64,000 nucleotides of DNA from positions 2,294,001 to 2,358,000 of the forward strand of contig NZ_CP093340.1 in assembly GCF_022637415.1 (NCBI RefSeq). Reading direction: 5' to 3'. The notes below the pieces were generated by a model. That model was not told the origin of the DNA, did not search any database, and saw nothing but the letters and a program-made list of their open reading frames with translations. Made by a program: the position numbers and the translations under genes. Source of the DNA: Luteimonas sp. S4-F44. GTDB lineage: Bacteria > Pseudomonadota > Gammaproteobacteria > Xanthomonadales > Xanthomonadaceae. Below, piece by piece: positions 18,283 to 48,781 of the stretch (the stretch's first letter is position 1; every line of letters begins with the position of its first letter).

Positions 18283-19161
18283 ATGGAAATCACCGCATCC
18301 CTGGTCAAGGAACTGCGCGAGCGCACCGGCGCCGGCATGATGGAGTGCAAGAAGGCGCTGAGCGAGACCGCCGGCGACATCGACGCCGCCGCCGAAGCCC
18401 TGCGCAAGTCGGGCCTGGCCAAGGCCGACAAGAAGGCCGACCGCGTCGCCGCCGAAGGTCGCATCGTCGCCACGCAGAACGATCGCGCAGCGGTGCTGGT
18501 CGAGATCAACTCCGAGACCGACTTCGTCGCCAAGGATGACAACTTCCTGCGCTTCACCGAGGCCGTCGCCCAGGCCGCCCTCACCTCCGGCGCTGCCGAT
18601 ATCGACGCGCTCAAGGCCGCGAAGCTCGCCTCGGGCGAGACCGTCGAGGAAGCGCGCGCTGCCGTCATCGCCAAGGTCGGCGAGAACGTGCAGGTGCGTC
18701 GCATCGTGCGGATGGAGAGCAGCCACAACCTGGCGGCCTACGTCCACGGCGGCCGCATTGGCGTGCTGGTCGAACTGCAGGGCGGCGACGCCGACCTCGC
18801 GCGCGGCCTGGCGATGCACGTCGCGGCGATGAACCCGCCGCACAACAAGGCCGCTGACGTCCCGGCCGAGTTCATCGAGAAGGAAAAGGAAATCGAGCTG
18901 GCGAAGATGTCCGACAAGGACAAGAACAAGCCGGCCGATATCCTCGAGAAGATCATCAGCGGCAAGCTCAACAAGATCGTCAACGAAGTCACGCTCTACG
19001 GCCAGCCCTACGTGCTCGACACCGACAAGACGGTCGAGGCCACGCTCAAGGCCGCCGGCGCGGACGTGCTCGGCTTCAAGCGCCTGGCCGTCGGCGAAGG
19101 CATCGAGAAGGTCGTCGAGGACTACGCCGCCGAAGTGATGAAGCAGGCCGGCCTGGCCTGA
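18283..19161 (+). CDS. tsf: Elongation factor Ts
   Basis: 292 residues from the ATG at 18283, with GAGG a few bases upstream. The N-terminal UBA-like helix bundle ([20 protein letters not shown]) and the TDFV motif in [14 protein letters not shown], which contacts EF-Tu, are intact. EF-Ts exchanges GDP for GTP on EF-Tu. Length is normal. The gene ends the rpsB-tsf transcript and is followed by a strong terminator rather than by pyrH, which commonly follows tsf in related genomes; the downstream gene order here is therefore rearranged. Confidence 0.98.
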
Positions 19162-19205
19162 TCCATCCGCCGCGGGTCCTTGCCGGACACCGCCAGGCGA
19201 CAGAA

Positions 19206-19236
19206 AAGCACGCCCCTTACGGGCGTGCTTTTTTTT
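19206..19236 (+). terminator. Intrinsic terminator after tsf
   Basis: AAGCACGCCC and GGGCGTGCTT form a perfect 10-bp stem with the loop CTTAC, followed by eight Ts. The four As before the stem allow weaker use on the minus strand, where the graspetide maturase gene ends. Confidence 0.92.
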
Positions 19237-19358
19237 GCCTCATCTCCCTCGTTAGCGAAAATGAGCGTGCTTCTTCGAAGCGACAGCGGCCTGCCAGCCA
19301 GAAGCCGCTCTCCCCTCGGTCAGACCGCTTTGCGGTCCGGCCACGCGAAGCACGCGCT

Positions 19359-20468
19359 TCACTCCTGGAACACCACGCCTTCCATCGACACCGGCAGATG
19401 GTCCTGGGCCGCGCCCTGCAGGAACGCCTCGTAGGCCGGGCTCCCGCGAAACGCGCCGAACCGGTACGGAAACTGCGCCAGGTCCGCGTTCGAGAAGTCC
19501 GGCCTGCGTGCCAGGAACAGGCCCACGAGCGCCGAGAGCACCGGCAGGTCCGGGCAATCCTCTTCCATCCACAGGCATTGCCCCGACTCGTTGACCTCCA
19601 GGAAGACGAAGCCGCCATCCGGCCGGACGATAAAGTCGAACGACCCGTGGACCAAGCCCAACATCGCCATGACCCGCAGACACCCCTCGCGCACCTGCTC
19701 GGGCAGCTGGAACGGCGTCACGGTCGGATGCTTGGCGGCGTGGCGCCAGTCCACCGCCAGGTCGGGATCGCCGCGCGTATCCAGGCGCGCGGCGATTACC
19801 GCCTGCCCGAACACGGCCACCCGTACCTCAAACGCTTTGTCGACGTAGTGCTGGTAGATCAGCGGGGACGCCTGCAGGACGCGTGGATCCTCCAGGTCCC
19901 GCTCGGTCACCAGCGAGGACAGGTACTCGTACGAGCGACCATCGCGCGTGTTCCATAGATGCGGGAAGAACGGCTTGGCGATGACCCGGCCTCTGTGAGC
20001 GCGCACGAATGTACGGATCTGGGCCGGATCGTTGCTCGCCAGCGTCTCGGGCACGATCATGCCGCAGGCCTGCGCCAAGCGCAGCTGATGCAACTTGTTG
20101 TGCCGGCTGGTCATGAAGCTCGTCAGCGGGTTGACCCACCAGGCCTGGGGGGCAAGCACATGCAGCAATCCCCAGAAGAAGCGCTCGCTTTCGCGTCGAC
20201 AGGCCTCCGCATCGCGGACATCCAGGCCCTCCGGCACGCCGGGCGAGCGTCCGATCCTGCGGATCCACACGAAATCGCAGTCGGCATCGGGCAGGCTGCC
20301 CGCCGCCGCGTCCGCGGTCTCGCGCAGCTCGAAGCTGTGGGTCGCGCGCGCGGGAAAGTCGCTCAGGCACATCCAGCGCGTCGCGATGCCGCGATCGGCA
20401 AGCGCCCACGCGACCGCGCCCGCATGGACGTCTCCGGGATGGGTGACGACGCGTAGATGTCCAGGCAT
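19359..20468 (-). CDS. ATP-grasp RiPP maturase (graspetide/microviridin-type, MvdD-like)
   Basis: 369 residues. The N-terminus (LRVVTHPGDVHAGAVAWAL) is typical of MvdD-like ATP-grasp ligases. The ATP-grasp core is visible in GRVIAKPFFPHLWN, YQHYVDKAFEVRVAVFG and the metal-binding SFDFIVRPDGG...LEVNESGQ near residue 290. Such enzymes use ATP to activate Asp or Glu side chains of a precursor peptide and join them to Thr/Ser (ester) or Lys (amide), giving side-chain macrocycles. The gene is divergent from a 64-residue peptide whose leader ends in a Gly-Gly motif and whose core is rich in Thr, Ser and Asp, exactly the residues an ester-forming maturase needs. No second maturase, GNAT or peptidase-transporter is next to it. 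The family is well supported; the chemistry is inferred. Confidence 0.85.
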   Translation of the reverse strand: MPGHLRVVTHPGDVHAGAVAWALADRGIATRWMCLSDFPARATHSFELRETADAAAGSLPDADCDFVWIRRIGRSPGVPEGLDVRDAEACRRESERFFWGLLHVLAPQAWWVNPLTSFMTSRHNKLHQLRLAQACGMIVPETLASNDPAQIRTFVRAHRGRVIAKPFFPHLWNTRDGRSYEYLSSLVTERDLEDPRVLQASPLIYQHYVDKAFEVRVAVFGQAVIAARLDTRGDPDLAVDWRHAAKHPTVTPFQLPEQVREGCLRVMAMLGLVHGSFDFIVRPDGGFVFLEVNESGQCLWMEEDCPDLPVLSALVGLFLARRPDFSNADLAQFPYRFGAFRGSPAYEAFLQGAAQDHLPVSMEGVVFQE

Positions 20469-20575
20469 GAAGGGCGTTCCGTCGATGGCGATGCGGGTGT
20501 TCTACCGCAGACCGCGGCCGCCATGCGAGCGGGCTCGCCGGCATCCGACACCACGGGGCATGTCCCCCGGACGAT

Positions 20576-20604
20576 TTGACAGGGGGGATGGTCATGGACT
20601 AAGA
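20576..20604 (+). promoter_or_regulatory. Candidate promoter for the graspetide precursor
   Basis: A perfect -35 TTGACA (20576-20581) is followed after 17 bp by a poor -10, CTAAGA (20599-20604). It would give a leader of about 50 nt before the precursor ATG. The consensus -35 with a weak -10 may indicate activator-dependent expression. Confidence 0.45.
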
Positions 20605-20658
20605 CACCGAGGACGCCGCCATGTCGACGGCGCCGCGAATCGAAAAGGAGACGTCGCC

Positions 20659-20853
20659 ATGTCGAAGCCAGGACCCGCCCCCCACTCGCCCACCGCCGAC
20701 GCGCCCGGCAGCTTCCGCCTGCTCAGCCGCCAACTCGCGCGCGACCTTACCGACACCGAGATCGACGCCGTTGCCGGCGGTACGACCTCGCGGACCCAGC
20801 TGTCGGCCCAGGTCTCGGCGCAGATCATCGTCGTCGACGATGCCGATGCATGA
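20659..20853 (+). CDS. Graspetide-type RiPP precursor peptide
   Basis: 64 residues with a strong ribosome binding site (AAGGAG, 20645-20650) ahead of the ATG. The leader contains LARDLTDTEIDAVAGG ending at Gly40-Gly41, the double-glycine pattern of leaders cut by C39-type peptidases and common in RiPP precursors. The remaining 23 residues form the likely core: Thr/Ser at 42, 43, 44, 46, 49 and 53, then a hydrophobic IIVV patch, then Asp at 60, 61 and 63. This spacing of acceptor hydroxyls and donor acids suits ester macrocycles made by the ATP-grasp enzyme encoded divergently. The product's ring pattern, activity and export route are unknown. A hairpin follows the stop codon. Confidence 0.78.
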   Translation: MSKPGPAPHSPTADAPGSFRLLSRQLARDLTDTEIDAVAGGTTSRTQLSAQVSAQIIVVDDADA

Positions 20854-20859
20854 GTCACC

Positions 20860-20880
20860 GGCCGGGCATCCTGCCCGGCC
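20860..20880 (+). terminator. Hairpin between precursor and DUF6624-like gene (leaky terminator or RNA stabiliser)
   Basis: GGCCGGGCA and TGCCCGGCC make a perfect 9-bp stem with the loop TCC directly after the precursor stop. No T-run follows, so full termination is unlikely. A structure here would protect or partly separate the short precursor message from the downstream gene. Confidence 0.55.
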
Positions 20881-20892
20881 AGCCTCCGCTTG

Positions 20893-21909
20893 ATGGGCCG
20901 CGCAACTCGGCGAGCGCTCAGCGCGCTGCTGCTGCTCGCCGGCGGTTCGGCCGCATGGGCTGGCACGCCGACGCCCGTGCTGCTCGACCGTCTTCCTGCT
21001 GACAGCGCGGTCGATCTGACCCGCCTGGACTGGATCCGGCCGCGGTTCTCGTCTGATCCGACCGAGCGCGCGCACTGGCACGCGCTGCTGGACTGGGCCA
21101 AGGCCACACGGCGCGCACGCACGTCGGCCCTGCGCGAGACCTTGCGCACGCGCGGCGTCGACGCCGCCGCGCTCCCCGAGGCCTGCTACGGGGACCGGCG
21201 GTGCGGCTTGATCATGGATGCGGAGGCGACGGCGGCCGCATTCGACGACTGGCCGGCCTTTGAGGCCGCCGCCAAGGACGCATGGCCCTACGTGCTGGGC
21301 CTGCGCCGCGCGGTGGAGATCGTGTCCCAGGTGCAGCCCCCCTCGACCGACCGCGAGGAGGCCCACGCCGTGGCGGCGGACCTGCAACGGCGCGCCACCA
21401 ATGACCAGATCCTGCGCTATGCCCTCGATGGGGTGCCCGGCCGCGATGCCGGGCCCGACGATCCGCTCTATGCGACCTACGCGTTCGCGCTCGGCGACGA
21501 TGTGCGTCGGCTGGACGCGGACAACGCCGCCTTCGCGGCGCAGCTGATGACCCGTCACGATGGCTGGCCCGCGCTCACCGCCCTGCCCGAGCAGGCGCAG
21601 GCCCAGCTGTGGCTTCTGGTCCAGCACGCCGACCAGCGGCCCGATCTCCAGTACCAGGCCTTGCTCGCCATGCAACGGCGCCATGCCGACGGCGCGGTGC
21701 CGGCCCGCTACGGCTTTCTCTACGACCGGGTCATGCTCAAGCTCGACGGCCGGCAGCGCTACGGCACCCAGGTCACCTGCATCGAGAGCCGTCGCGCGCC
21801 GCAGCCACTGGAAGACGAGGCGCGGGTCGACGCGCTGCGCGCCGAGTTGAAGATGCCACCGCTGAGCGAGTATCTCGCCCAATTTCCGGATTGCGCCACG
21901 GCGCCCTGA
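20893..21909 (+). CDS. Secreted DUF6624-like protein associated with the graspetide locus
   Basis: 338 residues from the ATG at 20893, with a signal peptide (ALSALLLLAGGSAAWA). The C-terminal half carries the pattern that I associate with DUF6624: LWLLVQHAD, a Q-x-x-ALLAMQRRHADG stretch, YDRV, QRYGTQ, and a closing LKMPPLSEYLAQF. No catalytic motif is apparent. A second gene in this window (47870-48781) has the same C-terminal pattern, so the family has at least two members here. The gene follows the RiPP precursor by 39 bp on the same strand, suggesting a role in processing, retention or immunity at the periplasmic side; that is inference. Family name is from memory and should be confirmed by profile search. 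Confidence 0.7.
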   Translation: MGRATRRALSALLLLAGGSAAWAGTPTPVLLDRLPADSAVDLTRLDWIRPRFSSDPTERAHWHALLDWAKATRRARTSALRETLRTRGVDAAALPEACYGDRRCGLIMDAEATAAAFDDWPAFEAAAKDAWPYVLGLRRAVEIVSQVQPPSTDREEAHAVAADLQRRATNDQILRYALDGVPGRDAGPDDPLYATYAFALGDDVRRLDADNAAFAAQLMTRHDGWPALTALPEQAQAQLWLLVQHADQRPDLQYQALLAMQRRHADGAVPARYGFLYDRVMLKLDGRQRYGTQVTCIESRRAPQPLEDEARVDALRAELKMPPLSEYLAQFPDCATAP

Positions 21910-21969
21910 CGCCGCGCGAGACGGGCCCGCTCACGCAGCAAGGCGCAAGCGAACCCGTGACCTGGGCGG

Positions 21970-22872
21970 TCAGTCGAGGTCGCGGACCCCGAGTTCGTCG
22001 AGCGCATCGCGCATCAGCGCCGCGGCCGGCTCGCTGAGCTTCTCGTTGTCGAGCGCGTAACGGATCGTCGCTTCGATCAGTCCCAGATGTGTGCCGCAGT
22101 CGAAGCGCGTGCCGCGGAAGCGGTAGGCGTGCACCGGCTTTTCGGCGAGCAGGGCCGAAATAGCGTCGGTGAGCTGGATCTCCCCGCCCGCGCCCGGCGG
22201 TGTCTGCTCGAGCAACGGGAAGATCCGACCATCGAGCACATAGCGGCCGACGACCGCCAGAGTGCTCGGCGCCTCCTCGGGCTTGGGCTTCTCGACCATC
22301 GAATGGATGCGGCCGTGCCGACCCTCGAACGCATCGGTGGCGACGATGCCGTAGCTGGCTGTCTTCTCCGGCGGCACGTCCTGGACCGCGATCATGCTCG
22401 CGCCAGTCTGCGCATGCGCATCGGCCATCTGCTTGAGCGCACCGTCGCCGCCCCGGTTCCACAGCAGATCGTCGGGCAGCAACACCGCGAATGGCTCGTC
22501 GCCAACCACCGGGCGCGCGCACAGGACCGCGTCGCCCAGTCCACGGGCCTCGGGCTGGGTCACGAAAATCGCGCGCACCCCGTCAGGCAGCGGCCGGCGC
22601 ACCTTCTCCAGCAGTTCGTGCTTGCCTGACGCCTCGAGCCGGTCTTCGAGCTCGTAGGCCTTGTCGAAGTAGTCGCCGATGGCGTGCTTGTAACGGTTGG
22701 TGACGAACACCAGCGTGTCGCAGCCAGCCTCGATCGCCTCGTCCACCGCGTACTGGATCAGGGGGCGATCGACGATCGGCAGCATTTCCTTGGGCACCGT
22801 CTTGGTCGCGGGCAGAAACCGCGTTCCCAGGCCGGCGACGGGAAACACCGCCTTTCGAATCCTTTGTGTCAT
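21970..22872 (-). CDS. galU: UTP-glucose-1-phosphate uridylyltransferase
   Basis: 300 residues with the nucleotidyltransferase signature VFPVAGLGTRFLPATK, KEMLPIVDRPLIQYAV, VTQPEARGLGDAV and VEKP. GalU makes UDP-glucose from UTP and glucose-1-phosphate, feeding LPS core, exopolysaccharide and osmoprotective glucans. The start overlaps the stop of the upstream WbpM-like gene by 4 bp (ATGA), so UDP-sugar supply is tied to the polysaccharide genes. Length and motifs are standard. Confidence 0.96.
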   Translation of the reverse strand: MTQRIRKAVFPVAGLGTRFLPATKTVPKEMLPIVDRPLIQYAVDEAIEAGCDTLVFVTNRYKHAIGDYFDKAYELEDRLEASGKHELLEKVRRPLPDGVRAIFVTQPEARGLGDAVLCARPVVGDEPFAVLLPDDLLWNRGGDGALKQMADAHAQTGASMIAVQDVPPEKTASYGIVATDAFEGRHGRIHSMVEKPKPEEAPSTLAVVGRYVLDGRIFPLLEQTPPGAGGEIQLTDAISALLAEKPVHAYRFRGTRFDCGTHLGLIEATIRYALDNEKLSEPAAALMRDALDELGVRDLD

Positions 22873-47873: not shown

Positions 47874-48781
47874 GCCGTCGCGCGATCGGCCTGCTGGCTG
47901 CGCTTGCCTGCGCAGTCCCGGCGTGGGCGGATCCGCCTACTTTCATGGACGCGCTGGCAGCCTATACAGCCGGCGATCCCGCGCGCTGCGGCGAGATCCT
48001 GCTGGACATGGAAGCCGCGGGTGGCGCGGTGCCAACGAGCGGCGAACTGTTGACGGCCGAATGCCTGTCGGCAACCGGACGCTACGATGACGCCTTCGCC
48101 TATCTGCGCAGGCAGCTCCCCAACGGTCGGATCGCACTCGACGAACTACTAGGTAAATCGCGCCCGGGGCTGGACGCGCTGCGGGCGCAGCCGGAATGGG
48201 CCGCGTTGCGCGCCGAGGCCCAGTCGTTGGAGGCAGCGCGCGCCGCCACCCTGGATTCCGCGCTGCGTGCAGAACTCCTGGCGCGCGCGGCTCGCGACCA
48301 GGCGGTCCGCAGCACGATGACCGATGGCGGCACGGCGCGGCTCGACCAATCCGACTGGGAGGCGATCGCAGCAGTCGACCGCGACAACGTCGCCTGGCTG
48401 AAACCGCTCATCGAGTCTCGAGGTTGGCCGGACAGCGATCTGGTCGGCCACGACGGCGCGAAGGCCGCGTGGCTGCTCGTCCAGCATGCCGACCACGACC
48501 CCGCATTCCAGCGCGACGCGCTCGCGCGGATGCAGGTCGCGGTCGAACGGGGGCGTGCCGACCGCAGCGACTTCGCGCTGCTGACCGACCGCGTCCTGCT
48601 CGCGGATGGCCAGCCGCAGCGCTACGGCACTCAGTTCCAGACCGGCGAGGATGGCGTCATGCGGATGCGCCCGGTGGAGGACCCCGACGGCCTGGAGGCC
48701 CGCCGCGCTGCTGTCGGACTGCCGTCGATGGCCGACTACCGCCAGGTGCTGCGCGAAGGTTACGGCATACCGGTCGAATGA
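47870..48781 (+). CDS. Secreted DUF6624-like protein
   Basis: 303 residues from the GTG that overlaps the phhB stop; the first residues are a signal peptide ([16 protein letters not shown]). The middle third is helical. The C-terminal part has the DUF6624-like pattern seen in the graspetide neighbour: [35 protein letters not shown], and [11 protein letters not shown]. No catalytic residues were recognised. It is probably a periplasmic protein co-expressed with phhB by translational coupling. Family name from memory. Confidence 0.7.

Follow-up and report, generated by a model that had tools for sequence, protein, structure and literature searches.

What does a secreted protein of the DUF6624 family do directly behind the gene of a small peptide that may be closed into rings? 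The question is raised by a locus in a 64,000-nucleotide stretch of the chromosome of Luteimonas sp. S4-F44 (G000:C1:2294001-2358000; G000 is this genome, and the whole stretch is referred to as the window). Here an ATP-grasp synthetase gene, a divergent gene for a 64-residue peptide, and a DUF6624 gene lie together, just as a preliminary description of the DNA had proposed. We suggest that they form a three-gene graspetide cassette, in which the peptide would receive up to three ester rings and be processed in trans, and in which a periplasmic DUF6624 protein would bind or modify it. This reading, drawn from sequence comparison, is on balance the probable one.

The precursor peptide is a constrained gene

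The precursor gene (20659..20853, plus strand; ATG at 20659, stop codon at 20851-20853) encodes 64 amino acids and has relatives in the genomes G037, G018, and G337. A ribosome-binding site, AAGGAG (20645..20650, plus strand, by sequence reading), precedes the ATG by 8 nt. The leader comprises residues 1-41 (20659..20781, plus strand) and ends in AVAGG, with Gly41 as its last residue. The core, compared in the four-row alignment A2, comprises residues 42-64 (20782..20850, plus strand) and reads TTSRTQLSAQVSAQIIVVDDADA. The strong ribosome-binding site, the leader ending, and the Thr/Ser-then-Asp core of the preliminary description were all confirmed.

We compared the gene with its G037 ortholog. 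Ten codons differ, three of them nonsynonymously (residues 8, 9, and 12) and seven synonymously; residues 13-64 are identical, all seven changed codons there being synonymous, and the ratio of nonsynonymous to synonymous substitution rates (dN/dS) is 0.144. The relatives in G018 and G337 are 59% and 52% identical, respectively. Across the four rows (window, G037, G018, and G337) 24 columns are invariant, among them F19-R24, L26-R28, G40, G41, T42, T43, S44, T46, D60, D61, and A64, while position 25 varies between Q and N. A chance open reading frame was ruled out by the codon changes in G037, the low dN/dS, and the conserved relatives; given this constraint and the conservation in G018 and G337, the peptide is a real gene. 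A search of 5.8 billion proteins at E ≤ 1 returned one peptide cluster (P0001, 94%), with one candidate scored; in that search and in the family genomes searched, the full core TTSxT...DD was found only in the relatives named here.

Within the core, T42, T43, S44, and T46 as well as D60 and D61 are invariant in the four rows, and position 63 is always acidic (D/D/E/D). The spacing between the Thr/Ser and Asp clusters varies by two residues among the copies, both ends of the core being fixed. From these fixed ends and the variable spacer we infer that the rings would join the N-terminal Thr/Ser cluster to the C-terminal Asp cluster, and that there would be at most three, because the core has three acidic positions. 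The peptide thus has a leader and a core with Thr/Ser and Asp residues, as expected of a precursor near a synthetase.

The divergent gene encodes a graspetide-type synthetase

The gene on the other strand (19359..20468, minus strand) encodes a 369-residue ATP-grasp synthetase of the graspetide type, assigned by profile and PDB homology and referred to here as the maturase. It matches TIGR04187 (1.4e-53), MvdC (2.6e-49), and MvdD (1.2e-42), in each case below the curated cut-off of NCBI. It is therefore of the MvdC/MvdD/TIGR04187 kind, and its earlier designation as MvdD-like holds insofar as MvdD is matched, but the protein is nearer to TIGR04187 and MvdC. Six solved sequences in the PDB match at E ≤ 1e-5, AMdnB first (7m4s, 3e-36), with 5ig8 (1.7e-35) and CdnC (7mgv, 4.4e-22) among the others; AMdnB and 5ig8 align with the maturase in its FLEVN stretch and its DWR region. 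The nearest named relative, from Luteimonas sp. RC10, is 94% identical, and two further synthetases in the own genome are 37% and 39% identical. On plasmids, 27 records match at E ≤ 1e-20, all with less than 60% identity. Against G037 the maturase dN/dS is 0.108.

In a tree of Lysobacteraceae synthetases (54 rows, 46 after near copies were dropped), one long branch holds the window maturase and its ortholog in G007 alone, with a stem of 1.25 changes per column. This branch joins G280 with support of 90/88, a join flagged as a possible long-branch artefact. The peptide is present at all three orthologous maturase loci, although its 5' part reads as frameshifted in G007; a maturase locus lacking a similar peptide, which would have spoken against the preliminary description, was not found among them. 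The reverse case was seen, namely two peptide-DUF6624 pairs (G018 and G337) with no maturase nearby.

Leader kinship points to probable processing in trans

Profile A2 was searched in 395 family genomes, with up to 15 candidates scored per genome, and matched in at least 21 of them at E ≤ 0.01. Full-length matches came from G000 and G337 only; G007, G037, and G018 presumably lay outside that draw. The six strongest partial hits (E 2.7e-8 to 5e-6) cover the leader columns and stand beside other Lysobacteraceae graspetide synthetases, so that the leader matches other graspetide precursors. Five of the six have cores resembling THATGPNGDDPxDP (THAT-type precursors), and the sixth, in G396, has another core. 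Among the hits near 0.001-0.01 are very long frames, which look like chance. The leader pattern common to the window peptide and the THAT-type precursors resembles ARxLTxxEIxxVAGG. Taken together, the homology of the maturase, the shared leader, and the invariant Thr/Ser...Asp core make the graspetide reading well supported.

THAT-type precursors, probably those of thatisin (group 16), belong to the same leader family as the window peptide. They differ in their core, in having their own C39 transporter in the own genome, and in the position of their synthetases elsewhere in the tree, where the THAT label covers eight rows, as some THAT rows go by different locus identifiers. In the own genome, the THAT-type locus includes an upstream transporter, whose N-terminus looks C39-like by eye, and a protein resembling HlyD, also by eye. 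Pfam confirmed the C39 domain, which lies outside the window (G000:C1:1391948-1392334); no other was detected in this genome at E ≤ 1e-8. G000, G007, and G037 each have one such domain at this threshold, at most about 3.1 kb from a THAT-type synthetase, and the cassette itself contains no C39 transporter. Since the only C39 peptidase detected belongs to the THAT-type locus, processing in trans is the simplest route, and the leader is probably removed by the transporter encoded there.

The DUF6624 partner carries a signal-like N-terminus

The DUF6624 gene (20893..21909, plus strand) starts 39 nt past the peptide stop codon and encodes 338 amino acids. PF20329 (DUF6624) matches residues 206-332 with 38.2 bits, above the Pfam gathering cut-off of 27. 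Residues 1-23 (20893..20961, plus strand) read as a probable signal peptide with an AxA end (AWA/G). The gene had been described as secreted and DUF6624-like, which agrees with both features. A signal-like N-terminus occurs in 39 of the 41 rows of alignment A4, as called by a loose rule (hydrophobic core plus A-x-A-like site). Invariant or almost so in this alignment are, among others, Q172, R175, D208, N211, Q244, H245, Q253, D278, R279, Q288, T292, Q293, and R316, and dN/dS against G037 is 0.313.

AlphaFold2 models of the partner and of a domain-only member (mean predicted local distance difference test, pLDDT, 93.1 and 91.2, respectively) are mostly helical with one strand pair. A fold search gave no confident match in the PDB and none among 152 viral models at E ≤ 0.001. 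No DUF6624 match was found in phages at E ≤ 1e-3, nor in a scan of viral contigs with P0004.

The gap between the peptide and DUF6624 genes holds a hairpin with a 9-bp stem and a 3-nt loop (20860..20880, plus strand). Its z-score is -1.25 in the window, which is not unusual, and -3.51 in L042. G037 and G007 have the same stem; the spacers of G018 and G337 did not show it.

The three genes form a discrete insertion

The trio is flanked on the left by tsf (18283-19161, plus strand) and on the right by galU (21970-22872, minus strand). When the empty tsf-galU spacer of L142 was compared with the window by blastn, homology ended at about 19322 and picked up again at 21970, which defines an inserted block of about 2.65 kb (19322..21969, approximate limits, no strand assigned). 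The block is carried at three of 30 galU loci, the own one included, with the DUF6624 gene adjoining galU. At 11 others tsf and galU are 181-375 bp apart and the spacer contains no DUF6624 or maturase gene, and the remaining 16 have no tsf within the stretch fetched. Given the empty sites and the break in homology, the trio was gained or lost as one unit; a fixed old neighbourhood is ruled out by the empty sites. A scan of genome contigs yielded one locus, L039, apparently the same as that of G037.

Repeats within the block are short, and clear transposon ends were not found in it. A scan of 19150-22000 for promoters and terminators reported none of either, a weak zero because a hairpin with a T run behind tsf (about 19205-19237), clear by eye, went unreported.

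DUF6624 occurs with and without graspetide synthetases

We examined where else DUF6624 occurs. It matches at E ≤ 1e-5 in 13 of 52 Luteimonas genomes. Genome classification puts G007 in this genus, although one record names its DUF6624 protein (P0003) Xanthomonas citri pv. mangiferaeindicae. Near-full-length proteins of the partner type with at least 50% identity occur in G000, G007, G037, G016, G018, and G024; that of G337 (48%) is the single match at E ≤ 1e-20 among 35 genomes of its genus. A TTSxT peptide lies directly upstream in five of these seven genomes (frameshifted in G007), and three of the seven have the synthetase too. The only synthetase of G018 is of the THAT type and on another contig, and G024 likewise has one elsewhere.

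At least 62 DUF6624 places and at least 104 synthetase places were listed among the 395 family genomes, both being lower bounds from up to five candidates scored per genome. Four of the 62 (in G000, G046, G165, and G409) lie within 2 kb of a synthetase, where about 0.04 would be expected for a flat genome size of 4.3 Mb. Most listed copies lie elsewhere, and we rejected the notion that every DUF6624 marks a graspetide locus. In G046:C11 an 84-residue remnant of a DUF6624 partner adjoins a THAT-type synthetase (L045:9988-10242). The window itself holds a second DUF6624 match at 48212-48742 (L037), in a secreted-looking protein beside a pseudouridine synthase-like gene (by eye); no synthetase of the own genome is near it.

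DUF6624 is also fused to LanM-type dehydratases

In all eight Luteimonas loci scanned with Pfam, DUF6624 forms the C-terminal end of a protein that matches DUF4135, a domain found in LanM; in L027, where the fusion ends at the edge of the fetched stretch, DUF4135 is below its cut-off. The fusion also matches TIGR03897 (3.3e-9), and no cyclase domain was recognised in the fusions. With up to two candidates scored per genome, and Pfam run on the Luteimonas fusions only, long fusion relatives were found in at least 14 of 390 genomes from three genera, and all 14 matches extend into the DUF6624 end. Of 12 fetched fusion loci, ten have a short peptide, or two, with an end of the type [ST]C..R..[IV]YC; none was found on the fetched stretches of the other two. 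The own genome has such a dehydratase with a C-terminal DUF6624 (L043:1239-6668; G000:C1, about 1373.2-1378.7 kb), preceded by two tandem 59-residue peptides that end in TCFRTIYCF and SCSRTIYCV and followed by a gene for a JmjC/cupin-like protein.

Discussion

In the mechanism that we favour, the ATP-grasp maturase would bind the leader and activate the Asp side chains D60, D61, and D63 near the C-terminus of the core. These would be joined to hydroxyls from T42, T43, S44, and T46, giving up to three large hairpin-shaped ester rings. Acting in trans, the C39-peptidase transporter encoded at the THAT-type locus would then cleave off the leader behind Gly41 and export the core. The DUF6624 protein, carrying a signal peptide, would meet the peptide in the periplasm and bind it or modify it further.

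Several observations weigh against this mechanism. The complete trio is confined to one tight clade of three genomes, which amounts to one evolutionary event, and one of these, G007, has a peptide gene whose 5' part appears to be frameshifted in a base run. The peptide-DUF6624 pairs of G018 and G337 have no synthetase nearby; G337, like G016, has none at all at E ≤ 0.001, and no C39 domain was found in G337 at E ≤ 1e-8. Beside the DUF6624 genes of G016 and G024, neither a TTSxT peptide nor a synthetase was found. The domain is also common without graspetides, in at least 54 of the 395 family genomes, with only seven of the 62 listed places no more than 15 kb from a synthetase. On a Sphingomonas plasmid, no graspetide gene is annotated at a distance of 6 kb or less from a full-length relative.

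The signal peptide and the place directly behind the precursor would also suit an envelope immunity protein that sequesters the graspetide or guards its target. A 2022 study (PMC8939145) describes secreted lipoprotein-like proteins of cluster 23, with no function assigned, beside graspetide synthetases, which may or may not correspond to DUF6624. However, no lipobox was found in the window protein, most listed DUF6624 places are away from graspetide synthetases, and fusion to a LanM-type dehydratase speaks more for a role in maturation or peptide binding. We therefore consider immunity unlikely and place it below binding or tailoring of the peptide. The same fusion places DUF6624 on a modifying enzyme, which could suggest a cytoplasmic partner for ring formation whose N-terminus is no working signal peptide. 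Carter et al. 2026 (PMC13097080) report such partner-dependent synthetases for rosaritide and corallotide, with MirC (PpiC type) and CorC (2-oxoglutarate oxygenase) as partners. Like the window, these systems tie an extra protein to the synthetase; MirC and CorC go by family names other than DUF6624. A cytoplasmic role is hard to square with the signal-like N-termini of nearly all aligned homologs, even by a loose rule, and with the persistence of the peptide-DUF6624 pair where no synthetase is near, and we think it quite improbable.

The window locus could also be a remnant of cassettes that decay by losing parts, other stages of which would be the frameshifted peptide in G007, the pairs without a synthetase in G018 and G337, and the fragment of DUF6624 in G046. 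All three frames are open in the window, however, and the dN/dS values against G037 given above (lowest for the maturase, highest for the DUF6624 gene) speak for constraint. The G007 frameshift could be a real defect or, lying in a base run, a sequencing error, and intact copies exist elsewhere. Decay is thus very improbable, and we retain the cassette with a periplasmic partner as our preferred reading.

The preliminary description knew of no account of this arrangement. Its novelty is partial, as DUF6624 beside graspetide loci is in print. According to PMC13097080, in graspetide groups 18, 20, 23, and 42 the domain occurs "at high frequencies" and may represent a class of biosynthetic enzyme not yet discovered, and lanthipeptide dehydratases lie near some graspetide loci. 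Clusters of these four groups resemble the window in having an ATP-grasp graspetide synthetase, a precursor, and DUF6624 close by; the window differs in its divergent synthetase, in a block without transporter, and in a core, TTSxT...DD, seen only in the named relatives. PMC8939145 also reports precursor clusters from Xanthomonas and Lysobacter. In the literature searched, DUF6624 was named in no other paper than PMC13097080, and none joined graspetides with Luteimonas. A limited literature search found no description of the exact three-gene order. While the pairing of DUF6624 with graspetide loci is already published, the window peptide family looks new, as do the maturase-less peptide-DUF6624 pairs in two lineages, the LanM-type fusions, and the likely processing in trans.

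Two other loci can be set beside the window. An operon in G409 (L136:8640-14194) likewise combines a peptide, a synthetase, and a secreted DUF6624 protein (DUF6624 by Pfam), but its genes are co-directional and a C39-type transporter and HlyD (both by eye) come next, its core is different, and its synthetase is distant. Two graspetide loci stand back to back there (L136:5322-14194, G409:C1), a synthetase and a peptide on the minus strand and peptide, synthetase, DUF6624, transporter, and HlyD on the plus strand. The third graspetide locus of the own genome (L044:4010-6218; G000:C1, about 1274-1276 kb) consists of a synthetase and a peptide with the core ...PTDSWVDNGTCTPKSDPPLVSDPHL. A different secreted-looking protein of 234 residues follows the peptide, the same secreted-partner layout as in the window, and no transporter was seen in the 9 kb fetched.

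With one peptide, one synthetase, one DUF6624 protein, and no transporter, the cassette is a minimal test case. Because the LanM-type fusion carries the same domain in an independent system, the role of DUF6624 can be tested twice, and the synthetase-less pairs raise the question of which gene is the true partner of the peptide. The recurrence of DUF6624 in two different systems for ribosomally synthesized and post-translationally modified peptides (RiPPs) is the most interesting lead. It prompts a broader and still doubtful idea, that DUF6624, a domain of unmatched fold, handles RiPPs in general, being exported next to graspetides and built into LanM-type dehydratases. In this view the TTSxT...DD peptide and DUF6624 would work as a pair in the two lineages where no graspetide synthetase is near, and the conserved partner of this peptide would be DUF6624 rather than the ATP-grasp enzyme.

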